Below are positions 7,142-55,013 of a stretch of 64,000 bases of DNA, one piece after another. The stretch covers positions 868,001-932,000 of the forward strand of contig JACQYI010000006.1 in NCBI GenBank assembly GCA_016208305.1. Reading direction: 5' to 3'. Below the pieces are notes generated by a model. The model saw only the letters and a program-made list of their open reading frames with translations, searched no databases and was not told the DNA's origin. Both the position numbers and the translations under genes were made by a program. Position 1 is the first letter of the stretch, and each line of letters starts with the position of its first letter. This DNA comes from Oscillatoriophycideae cyanobacterium NC_groundwater_1537_Pr4_S-0.65um_50_18. GTDB taxonomy: Bacteria; Cyanobacteriota; Cyanobacteriia; Elainellales; Elainellaceae.

Positions 7142-7221
7142 GGCAGGAAGAACGGGTGTAGAAAATGGGGTGAGGAAGTGCGGTGCCCTGAGCGCAAGTT
7201 CAATTTTTCGCTAGTCCGGCG

Positions 7222-7250
7222 TTCAAGTCCGGCATGTAGCCGGACTTGAA
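7222..7250 (-). terminator. stem-loop between gvpA and gvpC
   Basis: TTCAAGTCCGGC (7222-7233) pairs perfectly with GCCGGACTTGAA (7239-7250) around a 5-nt loop. It lies just after the gvpA stop on the transcribed strand and lacks a strong U tract. It may partly terminate or stabilise a short gvpA mRNA so that GvpA is made in large excess over the downstream proteins, as reported for other cyanobacteria. Confidence 0.6.
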
Positions 7251-7262
7251 TAAGGCCAAATG

Positions 7263-7481
7263 TTATGAAGCAGGTACGGCGGCTTGAGTGGTTAGACCTA
7301 CAGCTTCGGCGTACTTCAAATAGGTTTCAACTGAAGCGATGACAACCCGCGCTTCAATGGATAGTAATTCAATACCTACCAAAGACACCCGAACCCAAGC
7401 ATCAATCACAATACCCTTATCGAGAATGCGATCGACGACTTCAGCCAAACTAGAAGAGGAGTTAACTTTTTCGACAGCCAT
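7263..7481 (-). CDS. gvpA: gas vesicle major shell protein GvpA
   Basis: At 72 residues this has the exact size and near-canonical sequence of cyanobacterial Gvp[41 protein letters not shown], then [14 protein letters not shown]. GvpA forms the ribbed, gas-permeable protein wall of the vesicle. The start ATG has AGGAA seven bases upstream. Only one copy is present here, whereas several cyanobacteria carry tandem gvpA genes. It is the first gene of the operon, with its promoter in the region 7482-7978. Confidence 0.98.
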
Positions 7482-7978
7482 GATAAATTCCTATGTGTTT
7501 GTAATGAATATGAAACGCTAAATGTTCTGCTTTCCTCACAAGAAGAAATCTATGTAAGAAGAAATCCAGAAGCTGCGGTCTACACGACTAGAATAGGGAC
7601 TTGTAAAGAGAGAAGGCGCTGGCGTAAACGCTGAAAATTTATCAATTTCTGATAAAGCACCTTGCAGAAGTCCGAAATTTCACTGAAGGCTGAGCCGCAT
7701 TCTGATTAACAGAAATCTCAACAGAAGCGATCGCAAAACTGCTTGTTTTAAACTGTTTAACGAAGCTTGATCTGTAGATAAGCCAATCTTTCCCACACCT
7801 GAGAGATTGCTAACACGGGTATCCAAAATAGTTTTTTCAAATCGATTCAGCGAATTAACCGTGATGCTAAAAACCCTCCAGCGCCAATTTTTAAGTGACA
7901 TCGGAGGGGTGCATTTAATTAAGTTATGTAAAGCTACGGAGCACAATGCTGCTTACAGCACTTCATGCCCTACAAGAT
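7482..7978 (-). promoter_or_regulatory. gvpA upstream region (about 500 bp, no gene seen)
   Basis: This AT-rich stretch separates gvpA from the end of the upstream GT4 gene on the same strand and must hold the gvp operon promoter. No operator could be assigned with confidence. Small frames here (such as 7680-7946) show no protein-like composition. Confidence 0.5.
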
Positions 7979-49008: not shown

Positions 49009-51669
49009 TCATTGCAAAGCCTGTCGGTAAGCTGCATGAATACGCCGCAGATAGTTCGTCATGCTGAAGAACTTTGCCACCTGTTTACCCTCGGTAGAAA
49101 GCTGCGATCGCAAAGCAGGGCTGTTGAGCAGACCCGCCATCTTGTCTCGAATGTCACCCACCTCATAGGGATCAACATACACAGCCGCATTGCCGCAGAC
49201 TTCGGGCAAGCAGGAAACATTGGATGTAATCACAGGACAGCCAAAGCTCATCGCCTCAACCGGGGGCAATCCAAATCCTTCATACAACGAAGGAAACACC
49301 AGACAGAGGGCACCCCGGTAGAGATAGCGCAAGCTGCTCGTGGGCACATATTCCAGTAGCTTCACCTGTTTACCCGGATTTTTGCTGTTGGATACATAGC
49401 CCACTTTAGACAGCTCATCTTCCCAAAGCCAGCCCTTTTTGCCGACAATTACCAGCGGCATATCCGTATCCAAGCCAGAGTAGGCATCAATCAACCTGCC
49501 CACATTTTTCTTAGGCTCGATCGCCCCCACAAACAAGAAATATTTTTGATATTCCAAGCCATAGCGCTCTAGAAATTCTGAAACTTCTCGCTTAGAGGCT
49601 TCCAACGGCTCTAAGGCGATCGGTTGATAGGTCACGATGATTTTGTCTGGATCGGCCTCGTCAAAATAGGTCAACAGATCTTGCTTCGAGCTTTCAGAAA
49701 CGGTGATAATCGCCGCAGATTCCTTCAGCGCATCCCGAATTTTAAAGTAGAAGTTTTCCTTATCATCCAGCGTGGCATAGGGCAGACGCAGCGGAATCAA
49801 ATCATGAACCGTCGTGATTTTTTTGGCTCCCCGAATTTGCATCGGCAGCGGATAGGTGGCGTGCCAGAGATCAATTTTTTCGGGAACAGAAATTTGGGTC
49901 GTTAGCCCCAGTTTTTTGTACAGAACATTGGCAACGCCATAGCATTGAGGCAGATTAAAAGACTCGGCGTACTTGAGAAAATCTTCGTTGTACTGACCGC
50001 GTGTAACGACAAAATTGCGATCGCCTCTTCTGCGTCGTGCCCGATACAGCGGCGAAGTCGATTTTGCCAAGCCTTTGAGCAAAAACAACAGGCTATGATT
50101 CTCCGCCGGATTGTCGAAAAAGAAGACCTCATCCAGAATCTCATTGGACTTGTAGCCCCCTCGGCTCAGCAGCACATCGATATGTGCCCCTAGCAACGTC
50201 AAAGCCTGAATTAGGCTAATGCCGTAGGTCTTAATGCCCGTCCCCTTCTTGAGCTGCAAGTTATATCCATCAACCAGAACATTGACCCCTGCCAAGCTCA
50301 AGTCTGACGGTACGACGATCGGCTGGGGTTCAGATTTCGGATTTTTAGATATGGGTTGAGCAGCCTGCTTCTCACCCGGTGCCGCTTCAGAGAATGCAGG
50401 CAACTGGCTGACCTGAGCCAGCGGAGTCTGATACGCGATCGGCTGAGGCAGATCGACCGTTCTACTTTCGACCGAGAGTTCGCTGAGGTTGCCCCAGGTA
50501 GAGTCTTCTGCCGAGGTACGGAACGATCGCACTAGACCAGGCACACAAACCACATAGCCTCCCTGTTTGACAATCGAGCGGGGCGACCAGCAGGTAATCC
50601 ACCAGTCCTCATCGGCACCCTGTCCTGGCTTGCCTCGGTCGGGCTTAGGCGCACCCAGATAAGGCGTGGGAATCGGCATGACGCCTCGCCAGTAGTCTCG
50701 GTGGGCATGGAGGTGCTGACCGGGCATCGATCGCTTGTACAAGACCGAATATCCCGCTATTTCGCCTGTGCCAAAGTTGGGATGCTCCAGGGCATCGCGT
50801 CCGGCGAGCAGAGGGCGATCGCGCGGGTCTTGGATCTGCGCCAAAACTTTCAGCGTATCGGGGTGGATGTCAACGTCATCCTGAAAGTAGGAAATCCATT
50901 CGATCGCTGGGTCAGCCAGCCAATACTCCAGCCCAACATTCATCGCATTGGGCAACCCCCGGTTTTCGGGAAGGCCAATCAGAGGCACCTGATGCTGCTG
51001 AGCAATTTGGCAGTTTTCCTGGTGATTTTCTGGCGTTGAGGCATCATCGACCACTACCACCGGAATGCCAAGCGCCAGCACCTGAGGCAGCGATCGCGCG
51101 AGACTTTGCGGGCGATTGTACGTCGTAATAACGGCAGCATAGGTGGGAGGACGATGGGACTGCTCTAAGGCTTCAAATACTTCATCAAACTGCCGCATGA
51201 GCGCTGTAATGTGGACTTTGTCGGGTGGCTGTACGCCCGCAATTGGCGCGCTGGCATAGATGACAAAAACTTCGTTGGCAAAAACAGGATGAAACTGCTT
51301 AAGCACTTTTAGGGCAACAGGTGCTTCAATCTCAAGCGCCATGCCTTTGTGAAAGACAACAAATTGAAACTGCTCAGCGGGCAGCAGGTAAGAAACGTTG
51401 TAGTGATAGACTCCGGAGAAACAATCGAGGAACTCGTTAGGAGCCAAAATTGCGTCAAGCGGTTCGGCATAGGTCTCCAAAAACGATCGCGCCTGCATCC
51501 AAAATTCATCTTCAGTAGGAAATGGCATGGGAAAGGGGGTAAGTTCTCCGGCGTTTCTGATTTTAGGGATAAATCTGCCATTGGGCACCCGTGTTGCAAA
51601 TTCCGACTCCTCAGCAAAACCTTGACCGAATCGCAAAGCATTTGTTAGCCTAAGCAGATAACTGCACAT
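49009..51669 (-). CDS. GT2-GT4 bifunctional glycosyltransferase with N-terminal shared module
   Basis: This protein has up to 886 residues. Its start is uncertain: ATG 51669 or the ATG before [19 protein letters not shown] at about 51528. The module up to residue 175 ([32 protein letters not shown]) resembles the start of the radical SAM protein at 22664-25339. A GT2 domain follows ([55 protein letters not shown]). The C-terminal half is a GT4 domain ([60 protein letters not shown]). Both enzymes look intact, so two sugars may be added in turn. Confidence 0.85.
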
Positions 51670-51702
51670 AACTTAAGCTTTAGCAAAGTAGATTTCACAG
51701 CC

Positions 51703-51759
51703 ATGCACCCTACAGCGCCCTACTTTTATTTTTGGTTTAGCAAGGTTCACCTGAGGTGA
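51703..51759 (+). CDS. aroF leader peptide 1 (aromatic-rich)
   Basis: ATG 51703 opens an 18-codon frame encoding MHPTAPYFYFWFSKVHLR, stop TGA 51757-51759. Residues 7-12 are six aromatics in a row (Y-F-Y-F-W-F). Its stop codon overlaps the left arm of a hairpin (51744-51757) that competes with the terminator at 51788-51814. This is the geometry of a transcription-attenuation leader peptide sensing aromatic aminoacyl-tRNA. There is no strong Shine-Dalgarno; CACAGCC precedes the ATG. It is too short for standard gene finders. Confidence 0.82.
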   Translation: MHPTAPYFYFWFSKVHLR

Positions 51760-51791
51760 GTCCAGCTTTGCTTGGAACCTCAAGGTGAACC
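51744..51791 (+). promoter_or_regulatory. antiterminator hairpin 1
   Basis: GGTTCACCTGAGGT (51744-51757) pairs with ACCTCAAGGTGAACC (51777-51791), 14 bp with one bulge. Its right arm ends in GAACC, whose AACC (51788-51791) is also the base of terminator 1, so the two structures exclude each other. A ribosome that reaches the leader 1 stop would cover the left arm; one stalled on the aromatic codons would leave it largely free. Confidence 0.78.
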
Positions 51792-51814
51792 GCAGAATCG
51801 ACTCTGCGGTTTTT
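51788..51814 (+). terminator. attenuator terminator 1
   Basis: AACCGCAGA (51788-51796) pairs perfectly with TCTGCGGTT (51803-51811) around a 6-nt loop, then TTTTTG. It is a strong intrinsic terminator with no gene immediately upstream except leader peptide 1. Confidence 0.85.
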
Positions 51815-51870
51815 GTTTTATGTAGGCTTTTTTATCTCTCTTTCCTCTTTTCTCACAGCCTCTGACTCGC

Positions 51871-51933
51871 ATGACTCACTTTCCCACCTGGTTTTTTGGA
51901 TTTTACTTCTGGAGCGTCAACCGCTTCGGATGA
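51871..51933 (+). CDS. aroF leader peptide 2 (aromatic-rich)
   Basis: ATG 51871 opens a 20-codon frame encoding MTHFPTWFFGFYFWSVNRFG, stop TGA 51931-51933. Nine of 20 residues are aromatic (six Phe, two Trp, one Tyr). The FYFW core matches leader 1, suggesting that the two units arose by duplication. Terminator 2 starts 24 nt after the stop. There is no strong Shine-Dalgarno. A second, downstream checkpoint for aromatic supply is the likely role. Confidence 0.82.
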   Translation: MTHFPTWFFGFYFWSVNRFG

Positions 51934-51966
51934 GAGAGTCGTGCAAACGTTTCTTGAACCCGGAGC
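51923..51966 (+). promoter_or_regulatory. antiterminator pairing 2
   Basis: GCTTCGG (51923-51929), just before the leader 2 stop, can pair with CCGGAGC (51960-51966), seven pairs including one G-U. CCGGAGC is the left arm of terminator 2, so the pairing would prevent termination. A ribosome at the stop codon would block it. It is shorter than antiterminator 1 and less certain. Confidence 0.55.
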
Positions 51967-51989
51967 CAAACAAGGTTCCGGTTTTTTTT
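51957..51989 (+). terminator. attenuator terminator 2
   Basis: AACC-C-GGAGCC (51957-51967) pairs with GGTTCCGGTT (51974-51983), ten pairs with one bulged C and one G-U. Eight T residues follow (51982-51989). It lies 64 bp before the aroF ATG. Confidence 0.85.
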
Positions 51990-52052
51990 GAATATTCAGC
52001 TTGTTGAAGATCTAGCTAGTTTCCCCATCCCTTATATCTCAGGAGAACTCCA

Positions 52053-52928
52053 ATGCAGAAAGCTAAACTCGCACTCAAAACCACCGCCAACCACAAAACG
52101 ATCGTCCAACTCTCGCCTTCGGTCAGCGTCGGCGGCCAAGATTTACTCATTGTCGGCGGCCCTTGCACCGTAGAAAATCTGGCGCAGATGGAAGAAGTGG
52201 CCAGTCGGTTAGCGATCGCCCCTGTTCAAGCGCTACGAGGCGGCGTCTATAAGCCCCGCACCTCTCCCTACGATTTCCAGGGCTTGGGTATAGAAGGGCT
52301 AAAAATATTGCAGAGCGTGCGCGATCGATCAGGAATGCCCGTTATTACTGAAGTGATGGCTATTTCTCAAATCGATGATATTGCCGCCTATGCAGATGTG
52401 TTGCAAGTGGGCAGCCGCAATATGCAAAACTTCGACCTACTCAAGGCTTTGGGCGAAACCGATAAGCCAGTGCTGCTAAAGCGCGGATTAGCCGCAACAG
52501 TGGAAGAATTCGTCATGGCTGCTGAATATATCCTCAGCCACGGCAACCCTAACGTTATTCTGTGCGAACGCGGCATTCGCAGCTTCGATACTTACACCCG
52601 CAACGTGCTGGACTTAGGAGCCGTTGTAGCTCTGAAACAAGTCACTCATCTGCCTGTGATTGTTGATCCCAGCCACGCGGCAGGCAAACGTGAACTGGTT
52701 GCCGACCTAGCCAGAGCAGCGATCGCCTGTGGAGCCGATGGCGTAATTGTGGAATGCCACCCTGAGCCTGAGCAATCTGTTTCTGATGCCCGTCAAGCGC
52801 TTTCTTTAGAGGCAATGGTGGCGCTGGCTGAGAGTTTGGGAGCGATCGCCACCGCGGTCGGCAGAACCATTCCTCAACCCACAAATATTCTTAAAGCCGG
52901 GACTTTACCCCGGCTTTCGCTTGTGTAG
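52053..52928 (+). CDS. aroF: 3-deoxy-7-phosphoheptulonate (DAHP) synthase, AroF type
   Basis: This 291-residue protein joins PEP and erythrose-4-phosphate, the first step of the shikimate pathway to Phe, Tyr, Trp and chorismate. It is the type I-beta barrel: [100 protein letters not shown] and [20 protein letters not shown]. It lacks the extra N-terminal ferredoxin-like regulatory domain of some relatives, so feedback control may fall to the attenuators upstream. The ATG has AGGAG seven bases before it. A 20-residue tail after AVGR is encoded partly across a hairpin (52893-52917). Confidence 0.95.
52893..52917 (+). terminator. terminator-like hairpin inside the 3' end of aroF
   Basis: AAAGCCGGG (52893-52901) pairs with CCCGGCTTT (52909-52917), nine bp. 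It overlaps the last codons of aroF (KAGTLPRL), so the frame runs through a structure normally found after a stop codon. Confidence 0.55.
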
Positions 52929-52950
52929 CAAAGTTAGCATTGCTGAATCG

Positions 52951-53003
52951 GCAGATAGTTTTGTGAAAGAGAAGCTTAATTTCTCTCTCTCAAAATTATC
53001 TGC
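52951..53003. terminator. long hairpin between convergent aroF and SRPBCC genes
   Basis: GCAGATAGTTTTG pairs with CAAAATTATCTGC (13 bp with one G-U), with further A/T-rich inner pairing. It suits both strands. Confidence 0.6.
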
Positions 53004-53026
53004 TCACCCGTAGCGCAGTTCTGGAG

Positions 53027-53488
53027 CTACTTGCTCTCATTCTCCTTTGCCTTAAGGGCGTAGTCTCGAAAGCGGTTCATATCCGCTTGCAGGGTTGACT
53101 CCACGACTCGACCCACAAAGCCGTTGTCCATGATCCGGTTCAAAATGCTGGGAACCGCAAAAGCGACGGTTAGTTTGACGATGCTACTCTCACCGCGATC
53201 GTAAAACCGAATAGCACCACGATTGGGTAAGCCATCTACCGATTCCCATTGAATGATTTGATGGGTGACAATTTTGGTTATGCGCGACAGCCAGCTAAAC
53301 TCGAAGCCCCCGGTCGCCAGTTTCCAGCGAGAGAGATCGGGGTTATCAGGCTGAATCTTGACAGAATCGATCCACTTCATCCAGTTGGGCATCTGCTCTA
53401 GATCAGACCAGAGTCCCCACACCAGAGCGATCGGGGTTTCAACTTCGACTTGAACGGTATACTCTAGCCAGTCACTCATACCAGTCAC
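53027..53488 (-). CDS. SRPBCC (polyketide cyclase/dehydrase-like) protein
   Basis: This 153-residue START/SRPBCC-fold protein begins with the strand EYTVQVEVETPIALVWGLWS, has LEQMPNWMKWIDSVKI and a long C-terminal helix with VESTLQADMNRFRDYALKAK. The fold encloses a hydrophobic pocket. It lies 49 bp downstream of zds on the same strand, a pairing I recall as common in cyanobacteria, so a link to carotenoid or lipid chemistry is likely but unproven. Confidence 0.8.
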   Translation of the reverse strand: MTGMSDWLEYTVQVEVETPIALVWGLWSDLEQMPNWMKWIDSVKIQPDNPDLSRWKLATGGFEFSWLSRITKIVTHQIIQWESVDGLPNRGAIRFYDRGESSIVKLTVAFAVPSILNRIMDNGFVGRVVESTLQADMNRFRDYALKAKENESK

Positions 53489-53537
53489 TCATAGAAGCAG
53501 GCTTGCGCGGCAAAGAACAAGAATTGAATCAGCTTAT

Positions 53538-55013
53538 CTAATATTTGAACAAACCTGAGCCTTTGACCTTATATCCTGTCGGCTCTAGGATAGCGGCAGC
53601 CGCCTGCTTGCCCGAAATGGTCGCACCTTCCATGCTGTCGATATAGTCTTGCTGCGTGTAGCTGCCTGCCAGGAAAAAGTTGGGTATGGGCGTTTTTTGC
53701 GCCGGACGGTAGACATCCATGCCCGGATTTTCTCGATAGAGCGACTGCGCCAGCTTAACGACACTAAACCAGGTCATATTCAGCTCGCGTGAAGAGGGAA
53801 ACAGCTCATGAAGCTGCTTCAGAGCGTGCTGGGCTATCTCTTCATTGCTCATCTTGACGAAGGGGTCGCCGGGAGTCAGCACCACCTGCATCAGGGAACC
53901 CTGCCCCTCGCGGTAGTAGTCTTTGGGGCTGGTCAGCGCCAGATCAGCAAAGCAGGAAAAGTCGGCATCGGCGCTGTAGAGCAGATTGTCCATTCCAGCC
54001 GCGTGGTCGAGCTGCTTTCTCTGTTCAGCATTCTGCATCTCTGTGACCCAGCCATCAAATCGCAGCTGCACCGTCACGACGGGAACTGCCTCTAGCTTGT
54101 AAATATTGTCGAACTCTTTCCATTTGCGCCATTCCTGGGGCAAGAGCCGATGGATGCCAGGGATATCGCAAGCTGCCAGGTAAATATCGGCAGCGATCGC
54201 CTCATCTCCATCGCCATTAGCGACCACTAGCCCTGTCACCTGAGTTTGCCCGTCCCGCTCCTCAAACAAAATCTGGCGCGTCTGACGGCGAGTGTGGATC
54301 TTGGCTCCGCGTGCCTCTAGATATTTAAGAATTGGCTTGTGGATATACTCGTCGGGCGATCCGGCCAGCATATTCAGCCGTGAGGCTTCGGTCTTAGCCG
54401 CAAACATCATAAAGATAGTCAGCATACAGCGCGCCGAAATTTGCTCAGTGTCGATGAAGCCCAGCGCTAGGGCGATCGGGTCCCACATCCGTTCTAGGCT
54501 GTGCTGCGAGCCACCGTGGCTACGAAACCAGTCGGCAAAGCTGATGCGATCGAGGTTGCGGATCATTTTCATCGCCGCATCGTAGCTGACCAGTCCGGGA
54601 ACAATGGGGCTAGTGCCAAGGGCGATCGCGTTCTGGATCTTGTCTTTAATCGTCAGTTGCCCAGTGGTGAAAAATGCCTTCAGCCCATGAAAAGGCGCAC
54701 CCAGCAAGAAACGAAAATCTAGCTTGCCGATCTCGCCGCCGCGATTGACAAAATTATGGACATGCTCTTTGGGCAGCAATGCCTCAAACGTTCCCACATG
54801 CCGCAGGAGGGCAAACAGGTTGTTGTAATTGTTGAAGAAGACATGCAGGCCCATTTCAATATGGTTGCCCTCGGCATCGATCCAGCTTCCTGCCTTGCCG
54901 CCGACAAACGATCGCGCCTCAAATATTTCCACTTCATGTCCGGCATCTACCAGCTCAACGGCAGCCGCCAATCCAGCTAATCCAGCTCCAACGATCGCAA
55001 CTCGCATTCCCAC
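53538..55013 (-). CDS. zds: zeta-carotene desaturase
   Basis: This 491-residue FAD-dependent enzyme converts zeta-carotene to lycopene (via neurosporene) at the thylakoid/cytoplasmic membrane. The dinucleotide-binding motif is [20 protein letters not shown] near the N terminus, followed by [19 protein letters not shown] and [20 protein letters not shown]. The plant-type CrtQ/ZDS features continue in [20 protein letters not shown]. The C-terminal FAD-binding motif is [23 protein letters not shown] 55013 opens the frame; ATG 55007, two codons on, starts MRVAIVG and is probably the true start. Confidence 0.95.

Follow-up and report, generated by a model that had tools for sequence, protein, structure and literature searches.

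Two putative attenuators with aromatic leader codons lie in series upstream of the DAHP synthase gene aroF in many cyanobacteria

The stretch of cyanobacterial DNA analyzed here, a window of 64 kb, carries on its plus strand a gene for a type I-beta DAHP synthase (aroF, 52053..52928), recognized by the NCBIfam model TIGR01361 with a score of 356.6 bits (cut-off 267.75). Two short open reading frames precede it on the same strand in the order uORF1 (51703..51759), uORF2 (51871..51933), aroF, and a terminator-like hairpin follows each of them. The deduced leader peptides are MHPTAPYFYFWFSKVHLR for uORF1, with 6 aromatic residues out of 18 and an aromatic run encoded at 51721-51738, and MTHFPTWFFGFYFWSVNRFG for uORF2, with 9 out of 20 and a run at 51889-51912. 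Both reading frames had been picked out in an original prediction, and they read as described there. The prediction also held that aromatic codons at such density next to aroF were very unlikely by chance. A scan of both strands of the window for short ORFs (up to 30 codons, with the ATG or GTG start nearest to the aromatic cluster) agreed with this view: four ORFs had at least 5 aromatic residues in 9, and uORF1 and uORF2 were the only ones with at least 6 in 9.

An Rfam search of positions 50000-54000 returned no family overlapping the aroF leader up to E = 1, and no match to the Rfam covariance models for amino-acid leaders or T-boxes at the same limit. BLASTN of the leader against plasmids gave no match. 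An inverted repeat (52948-53005) lies just downstream of aroF; Rfam miRNA matches to it on both strands were below threshold, at chance level, and were rejected. A further match to the DAHP synthase family PF00793 is present in the same genome (G000:C4:1066690-1067577) and was missed by the AroF protein search; given this match, aroF may not be the sole enzyme for the entry step.

Unit 1 comprises uORF1 and an intrinsic terminator (51787..51812), which has 10 pairs and a U-rich tract downstream. An alternative pairing joins GGTTCACCT (51744..51752), located within the end of uORF1, to AGGTGAACC (51783..51791). The latter takes 51787-51791 from the 5' arm of the terminator, and this antiterminator removes 5 of the 10 terminator pairs. 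Both arms are supported by the fold and by covariation, and the unit folded better than its shuffled versions (z -4.31). Unit 2 comprises uORF2 and an intrinsic terminator of 8 pairs (51960..51981) with a U tract at 51982-51989. Here 51960-51966 doubles as the 5' arm of the terminator and as segment 3 of an antiterminator, in which it pairs with segment 2 (GCTTCGG, 51923..51929) at the end of uORF2; the fold and the covariation of the corresponding helix support this pairing. The minimum-energy fold of the free unit additionally contains a candidate protector hairpin 1:2 (51908..51930, with 51908-51916 paired to 51922-51930), for which there are no covariation data. The fold energy of unit 2 was not outstanding compared with shuffles (z -1.26, with 24 of 200 shuffles equally good). 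The terminators had been anticipated at 51788-51814 and 51957-51989, each with a competing upstream pairing, and all four elements were thus recovered, the hairpins with slightly different borders.

A sigma-70-like promoter (TTGACC, 18 nt, TAGCCT) is located upstream of uORF1 on the plus strand (51622..51651); it is inferred from a conserved pattern, without a mapped transcript start. The pattern (TTGACN, 15-19 nt, TANNNT) was defined after inspection of a 20-locus alignment. It occurred within 150 nt upstream of uORF1 in 81 of 82 loci, with a shuffled expectation of 1.7, in none of 79 loci between the starts of uORF1 and uORF2, and in one of 79 between uORF2 and aroF. Because the promoter-like site lies upstream of uORF1 and not between the units, transcripts are expected to run through unit 1 first and unit 2 second. 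A transcription start downstream of 51989, which would have refuted the original prediction, is not what the conserved site points to. A sequence resembling a Shine-Dalgarno element preceded the start codon of uORF1 in 4 of 82 loci and that of uORF2 in 34 of 83. The divergent gene on the minus strand (49009-51669) has glycosyltransferase domains; its longest ORF would begin inside the conserved aroF promoter region, and its true start may therefore be the internal ATG at 51528.

For the comparison with relatives, we used the best 80 of 460 confirmed aroF candidates in named genomes, together with family genomes. The resulting 111 loci gave 90 distinct upstream regions, of which 86 were judged, after exclusion of one distant paralog and three regions with 102 nt or less of upstream sequence. 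Unit 1 was present in 85 of these 86 (82 identified by script through uORF1, and L018, L023 and L054 by covariance model, the last being cut by a contig end), and was absent only from L038. Unit 2 was present in all 86 (83 by script through uORF2, and L035, L036 and L103 by covariance model). AroF identity within the conserved set ranges from 92% in relatives down to about 72-75% in Nostoc, Calothrix and Microcoleus, so that the leader ORFs and hairpins, whose absence from close relatives would have counted against the prediction, are retained far beyond them. In L035 and L036 (Calothrix) and in L117, the aromatic run of uORF2 is kept, the usual stop is lost, and the ORF continues beyond the antiterminator region.

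Within uORF1, positions -12 to -7 from the stop were aromatic in 82-100% of loci. In uORF2 the same was true for positions -14 to -7 in 88-100% of loci, with the exception of -11, which was mostly glycine. Phe, Tyr and Trp interchanged at the aromatic positions of both leaders, and all three were present in 81 of 82 uORF1 peptides and 81 of 83 uORF2 peptides, which by codon content suggests that both units are aimed at the same three amino acids. We considered that aromatic-rich short ORFs might arise as a coding artefact, by chance, out of T-rich spacer DNA, and TTT was indeed the commonest core codon. However, 465 of 492 core codons in uORF1 and 554 of 581 in uORF2 were aromatic, with TGG, TAC and TAT among them, and the scan of the window described above had singled out only these two ORFs at 6 of 9. 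Moreover, the upstream regions of paralogs and distant homologs (20 + 20 stretches of about 1.2 kb each) contained a short ORF rich in aromatic residues in 4 cases on the sense strand and in 8 on the antisense strand, with no pattern among the 40. We therefore attach practically no weight to a chance origin.

An outgroup aroF (L229 in G374, 57% identity) has an upstream short ORF encoding FYYFSFY (853-904), after which the scan found no terminator. For three trpE-family matches in the genome of the window, none of them over the cut-off, short ORFs in the 450 nt preceding the longest ORF at each locus contained at most 2 aromatic residues.

Covariation was assessed in an alignment of 44 unit 1 sequences (50 sequences less than 90% alike were picked from the 82, and 6 without plus-strand reference were dropped) and an alignment of 54 unit 2 sequences (58 picked from 83, 4 dropped for the same reason). 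In unit 1, 89.0% of the cells in the antiterminator and 92.3% of those in the terminator were paired, and changes on both sides were seen at 6 of 12 and 6 of 10 pairs, respectively. A third pairing, an anti-antiterminator, was weakly supported, with 72.2% of cells paired. In unit 2, 89.5% of the antiterminator cells were paired and 24 had double changes; the corresponding figures for the terminator were 92.9% and 25. For all four helices, both the share of paired cells and the count of double-change cells exceeded those of every one of 500 shuffles. These shuffles ignore relatedness; slid controls, which retain it, reached at best 50 to 63% of cells paired. Sliding the unit 2 antiterminator by +3 matched its 24 double-change cells, but only 15.4% of cells were then paired.

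Other measures did not exceed the shuffles, namely the pair types of the unit 1 terminator (reached by 101 of 500) and, in unit 2, for antiterminator and terminator respectively, the count of double-changed pairs (397 and 97 of 500) and the pair types (434 and 120 of 500). RNAalifold selected the unit 2 antiterminator unprompted; in unit 1 it picked the terminator and a local hairpin, not the long antiterminator. Overall, compensatory changes were found in the terminator and the antiterminator of each unit, as a test of the original prediction by covariation would demand. A recent tandem duplication of one unit was not supported, each covariance model detecting only its own unit in the window; in 3 other loci the unit 2 model scored weakly at unit 1 (15 to 20 bits).

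We then surveyed the phylum with the two models. Among 386 genomes that were at least 80% complete, 38 had aroF (AroF match with E 1e-100 or better). Unit 1 was found in 37 of them and unit 2 also in 37 (E below 1e-7), with both units in 36. One genome (G147, locus L203) had unit 1 alone, and one (G174, locus L204) unit 2 alone. Genomes with unit 1 belonged to 10 families and 27 genera. By coordinates, the matches lay directly upstream of aroF, or in G413 upstream of its first part. The survey has limits: searches of more than 40 genomes use stricter filters, with at most 9 candidates scored per genome, and the models were partly built from the same or near genomes, which makes the survey partly circular for presence.

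No strong match to either unit away from aroF or its remnant was found in the 386 genomes. The sole other unit 1 match, in G064, precedes an aroF remnant (G064:C48:72000-76500, minus strand, near 2156), and unit 1 runs straight into it; lacking unit 2 and the aroF start, this remnant is a decayed copy. Weak matches to unit 2 alone occurred in 13 further genomes (best E 4e-4 to 0.0084). The best of them, in G134, does not adjoin aroF and has no aromatic-rich leader ORF, and another, in G238, has no aroF in the stretch around it; neither was retained. In G413 (C1:3949500-3958500, minus strand), an insert of several kb splits aroF into two parts (7221-7532 and 824-1498), both leader units precede the gene, and an ORF for a recombinase of the phage integrase family (PF00589, E 5e-13) lies directly at the break. 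We take this insert to resemble the excisable elements of heterocyst-forming cyanobacteria.

The close association with aroF bears on the possibility that the leader serves chiefly as an sRNA gene joined to aroF, similar to an "actuaton", with the terminated RNAs or the peptides acting in trans. Terminated leaders would build up as discrete RNAs, and units of sRNA and mRNA are known in Synechocystis, according to the accessible part of one report (PMC5386190). Yet neither the aromatic codons, nor their position just before the switch, nor the alternative helices would be expected of a plain sRNA, and strong matches to both unit models were confined to the neighborhood of aroF or its remnant. 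We regard this explanation as extremely improbable, with the reservation that an sRNA role and attenuation are not mutually exclusive.

The effect of ribosome position was modeled by folding the RNA downstream of the ribosome in silico, with the A site at each codon and 12 nt masked ahead. The set comprised 78 unit 1 and 68 unit 2 loci; 4 of 82 and 15 of 83 were dropped when a simple terminator finder failed. For unit 1, the mean probability of the terminator over the 78 loci, P(terminator), was 0.42-0.52 with the ribosome at codons -18 to -10, 0.25 at -9, 0.57 at -8, 0.79 at -7, 0.94 at -6, 0.92 at the stop, and 0.30 without a ribosome. The dip was sharp only at codon -9, and the values of 0.57 and 0.79 mean that for stalls at -8 (mostly Trp) and -7 termination is predicted more often than read-through. 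For unit 2, the mean was 0.57 at -11, 0.66 at -8, 0.92 at -6, 0.96 at the stop, and 0.92 without a ribosome; the dip was bimodal over the 68 loci, with medians of 0.80 to 0.94 at -18 to -8. In these models the switch to termination occurs towards the end of the aromatic run, and in unit 1 within the last two aromatic codons. Masking 9 or 15 nt instead of 12 moved it by one codon each way, and the exact switch codon is uncertain because it depends on the assumed footprint of the ribosome.

Folding was also evaluated for the moment before the 3' arm of the terminator is made. With a stalled ribosome, the terminator 5' arm was paired to the ORF with a mean of 0.98 in unit 1 and 0.99 in unit 2; with the ribosome at the stop the value was 0.00 in both units, and without a ribosome it was 0.99 and 0.65. 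Synonymous recoding of the last codons lowered the stalled pairing in 78 of 78 unit 1 loci and 67 of 68 unit 2 loci, to means of 0.86 and 0.84. The conservation of the peptide C-termini (in uORF1 a VH close to the end, in uORF2 a terminal SG) is consequently due, at least in part, to the antiterminator arm.

These C-termini could also be taken to mean that the nascent leader peptides arrest the ribosome in the manner of TnaC, on a free aromatic amino acid or another ligand rather than on uncharged tRNA; arrest peptides containing aromatic residues exist. The exchange of Phe, Tyr and Trp at positions that stay aromatic fits the sensing of codons better than a fixed arrest motif, and arrest by an excess of product would switch a biosynthetic gene in the wrong direction. 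With the recoding result in addition, we judge peptide arrest to be very improbable.

In the strain of the window, unit 1 behaved like the average of the loci. Unit 2 did not switch at equilibrium: P(terminator) was 0.90 to 0.92 at every ribosome position. Before the 3' arm was made, its antiterminator reached 0.88-1.00 over the aromatic run, 0 at the stop, and 0.82 without a ribosome, and thus wins only until the 3' arm of the terminator is transcribed. The E. coli leaders served as controls, with any upstream partner counted and not the ORF alone. At trpL, P(terminator) at equilibrium was 0.95 to 0.97 at every codon, and before the 3' arm was made the 5' arm was paired upstream with 0.99 at the Trp codons and 0.02 at the stop; pheL switched at equilibrium. 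The predicted dependence on ribosome position, by analogy with trpL and pheL, was therefore reproduced in silico for both units, but at equilibrium it held neither for unit 2 of the window nor for trpL itself.

The equilibrium result for unit 2 of the window is compatible with only one of the units working, the other being a relic or merely a terminator that reduces read-through from upstream, and the genomes with unit 1 alone or unit 2 alone indicate that one unit can suffice. However, the presence of both units in 36 of 38 aroF genomes and the compensatory changes in each terminator and each antiterminator are difficult to reconcile with a relic, and unit 2 of the window resembles E. coli trpL as long as the 3' arm has not been made. 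A single working unit appears improbable to us for these reasons.

The two units differ in the behavior of free RNA. A protector, which would commit untranslated RNA to termination, was not evident in unit 1, where P(terminator) of the free RNA was 0.30 over 78 loci; in this respect unit 1 is unlike trpL and pheL, whose free RNA gave 0.97 and 0.94. In unit 2 the free RNA was predicted to be terminated at equilibrium (0.92 over 68 loci), and the candidate 1:2 hairpin is present in the window. As long as the 3' arm is missing, free unit 2 RNA nevertheless formed the antiterminator with a probability of 0.65 over the 68 loci and 0.82 in the window, and termination of untranslated unit 2 is predicted less clearly if folding is followed during transcription. 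The original prediction of two such units in series thus stands in that both are attenuator-like, but they follow different designs, unit 1 being predicted to be antiterminated when untranslated and unit 2 to be terminated at equilibrium.

Altogether, several features of an attenuator were found at this locus: an ORF with codons for the pathway products, a terminator before the gene, an antiterminator based on the ORF, and a promoter-like site upstream. The ORFs, the terminator sequences, the alternative helices, the promoter-like site, their conservation and their covariation are what the sequence analysis shows. We consider it highly probable that they constitute two ribosome-mediated attenuators in series, of different designs, each able to sense the charging of Phe, Tyr and Trp tRNAs. 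In this reading, it is inferred that the leaders are translated, that ribosomes stall on them, that transcripts terminate in vivo and that read-through responds to amino acids, since no transcript, ribosome or expression data are available. An undelayed ribosome would reach the leader stop and cover the 5' arm of the antiterminator, the terminator would form, and transcription would stop. When charged Phe, Tyr or Trp tRNA is short, the ribosome would halt in the aromatic run, leaving the antiterminator arm free, and RNA polymerase would read on. Unit 1 would act through a long antiterminator hairpin that is predicted to form also in untranslated RNA, and unit 2 would resemble attenuators of the trp/phe type. 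As the polymerase must pass both units, the expected read-through is the product of the two, with a wider range of control.

The pair of units need not be a mere doubling, to judge from the folding models. One possibility is that it may work as a logic gate, with unit 1 open unless it is translated to the stop and unit 2 open only with a ribosome stalled in it. We hold this idea tentatively and think it rather unlikely; our confidence in it, never above even, was lowered further because free unit 2 RNA was partly antiterminated before the 3' arm was made. If true, the gate would open only for a genuine shortage of aromatic amino acids with translation running and would stay shut when initiation fails, its dynamic range would be multiplied, and the pair would have been kept with aroF as a fixed module since before several families split.

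The leader thus has the appearance, in many cyanobacteria, of a switch in two stages that sets supply against demand at the first enzyme of aromatic amino-acid synthesis. It would represent a deeply conserved, covarying case of attenuation in cyanobacteria, with two different aromatic attenuators in series before one biosynthetic gene. Control of entry into the shikimate pathway in these organisms becomes testable, and for the engineering of aromatic products the leader provides two built-in valves whose removal is an option. If the interpretation is true, we further infer a coupling of transcription and translation in these cells that is tight enough to let leader peptides act.

Sensing elements placed in series before one gene are familiar from tandem T-boxes. 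A tandem arrangement is also found among riboswitches, in the leader of B. clausii metE (PMC3641672; like all papers cited below, accessible in part, to which our statements are limited). Such leaders bind tRNA or a metabolite directly; the aroF leader had no Rfam family match. For cyanobacteria, reliable data on attenuation do not exist according to a paper on leader genes from 2016 (PMC4833913), and a 2005 screen of a database of putative attenuators for tyrA operons contained no cyanobacterial entry that we noticed in the part examined (PMC1173090). Among the titles listed in our search of the open literature there was no report of this cyanobacterial leader; papers under subscription or unpublished RNA-seq data could hold one.

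Attenuation at aroR-aroF of C. glutamicum was reportedly described originally by Neshat in 2014. There, a leader peptide with Phe-Tyr-Phe precedes a DAHP synthase gene (PMC4046766, PMC11802643); it is a single leader, and the accessible review text gives a response to Phe, not Tyr. Attenuation of aroF by Tyr-tRNA has been proposed for E. coli and Shewanella, with Camakaris 1980 cited (PMC8632094, PMC2659441), again with a single attenuator, in proteobacteria, unlike the tandem cyanobacterial leader; in the portion available, the control described for aroF in E. coli is TyrR repression (PMC11802643). The uORFC-13-1 motif, a candidate uORF and terminator upstream of Acholeplasma aroF (PMC8632094), is described as a single unit with "at least one phenylalanine" in 24 sequences from Acholeplasma and environmental DNA.

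The layout that the original prediction could not match to a described system is accordingly new only in part: tandem leader-ORF attenuators (mgtCBR) and a single aromatic leader of aroF (C. glutamicum) were known, but the tandem cyanobacterial form was unreported in the literature searched. Like E. coli trpL and pheL, the aroF leader combines ORFs of regulatory codons, a terminator and an antiterminator that share a segment, and a predicted switch near the regulatory codons. The E. coli leaders have one unit each and respond to Trp or Phe only, whereas the aroF leader has two, both containing Phe, Tyr and Trp codons. A precedent for the tandem arrangement is the Salmonella mgtCBR leader, in which two leader ORFs (mgtM and mgtP) with tandem attenuators precede one coding region, and whose authors, in the text available, note that genes for nutrient biosynthesis are normally under a single attenuator (PMC3641672). 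The aroF leader shares with it a layout in which a single gene is preceded by two leader ORFs that each have alternative structures of their own. The mgtCBR units, as far as the accessible text goes, respond to different signals (ATP and proline), act additively and control a gene that is not biosynthetic, whereas the codons of both aroF units specify the same three products.
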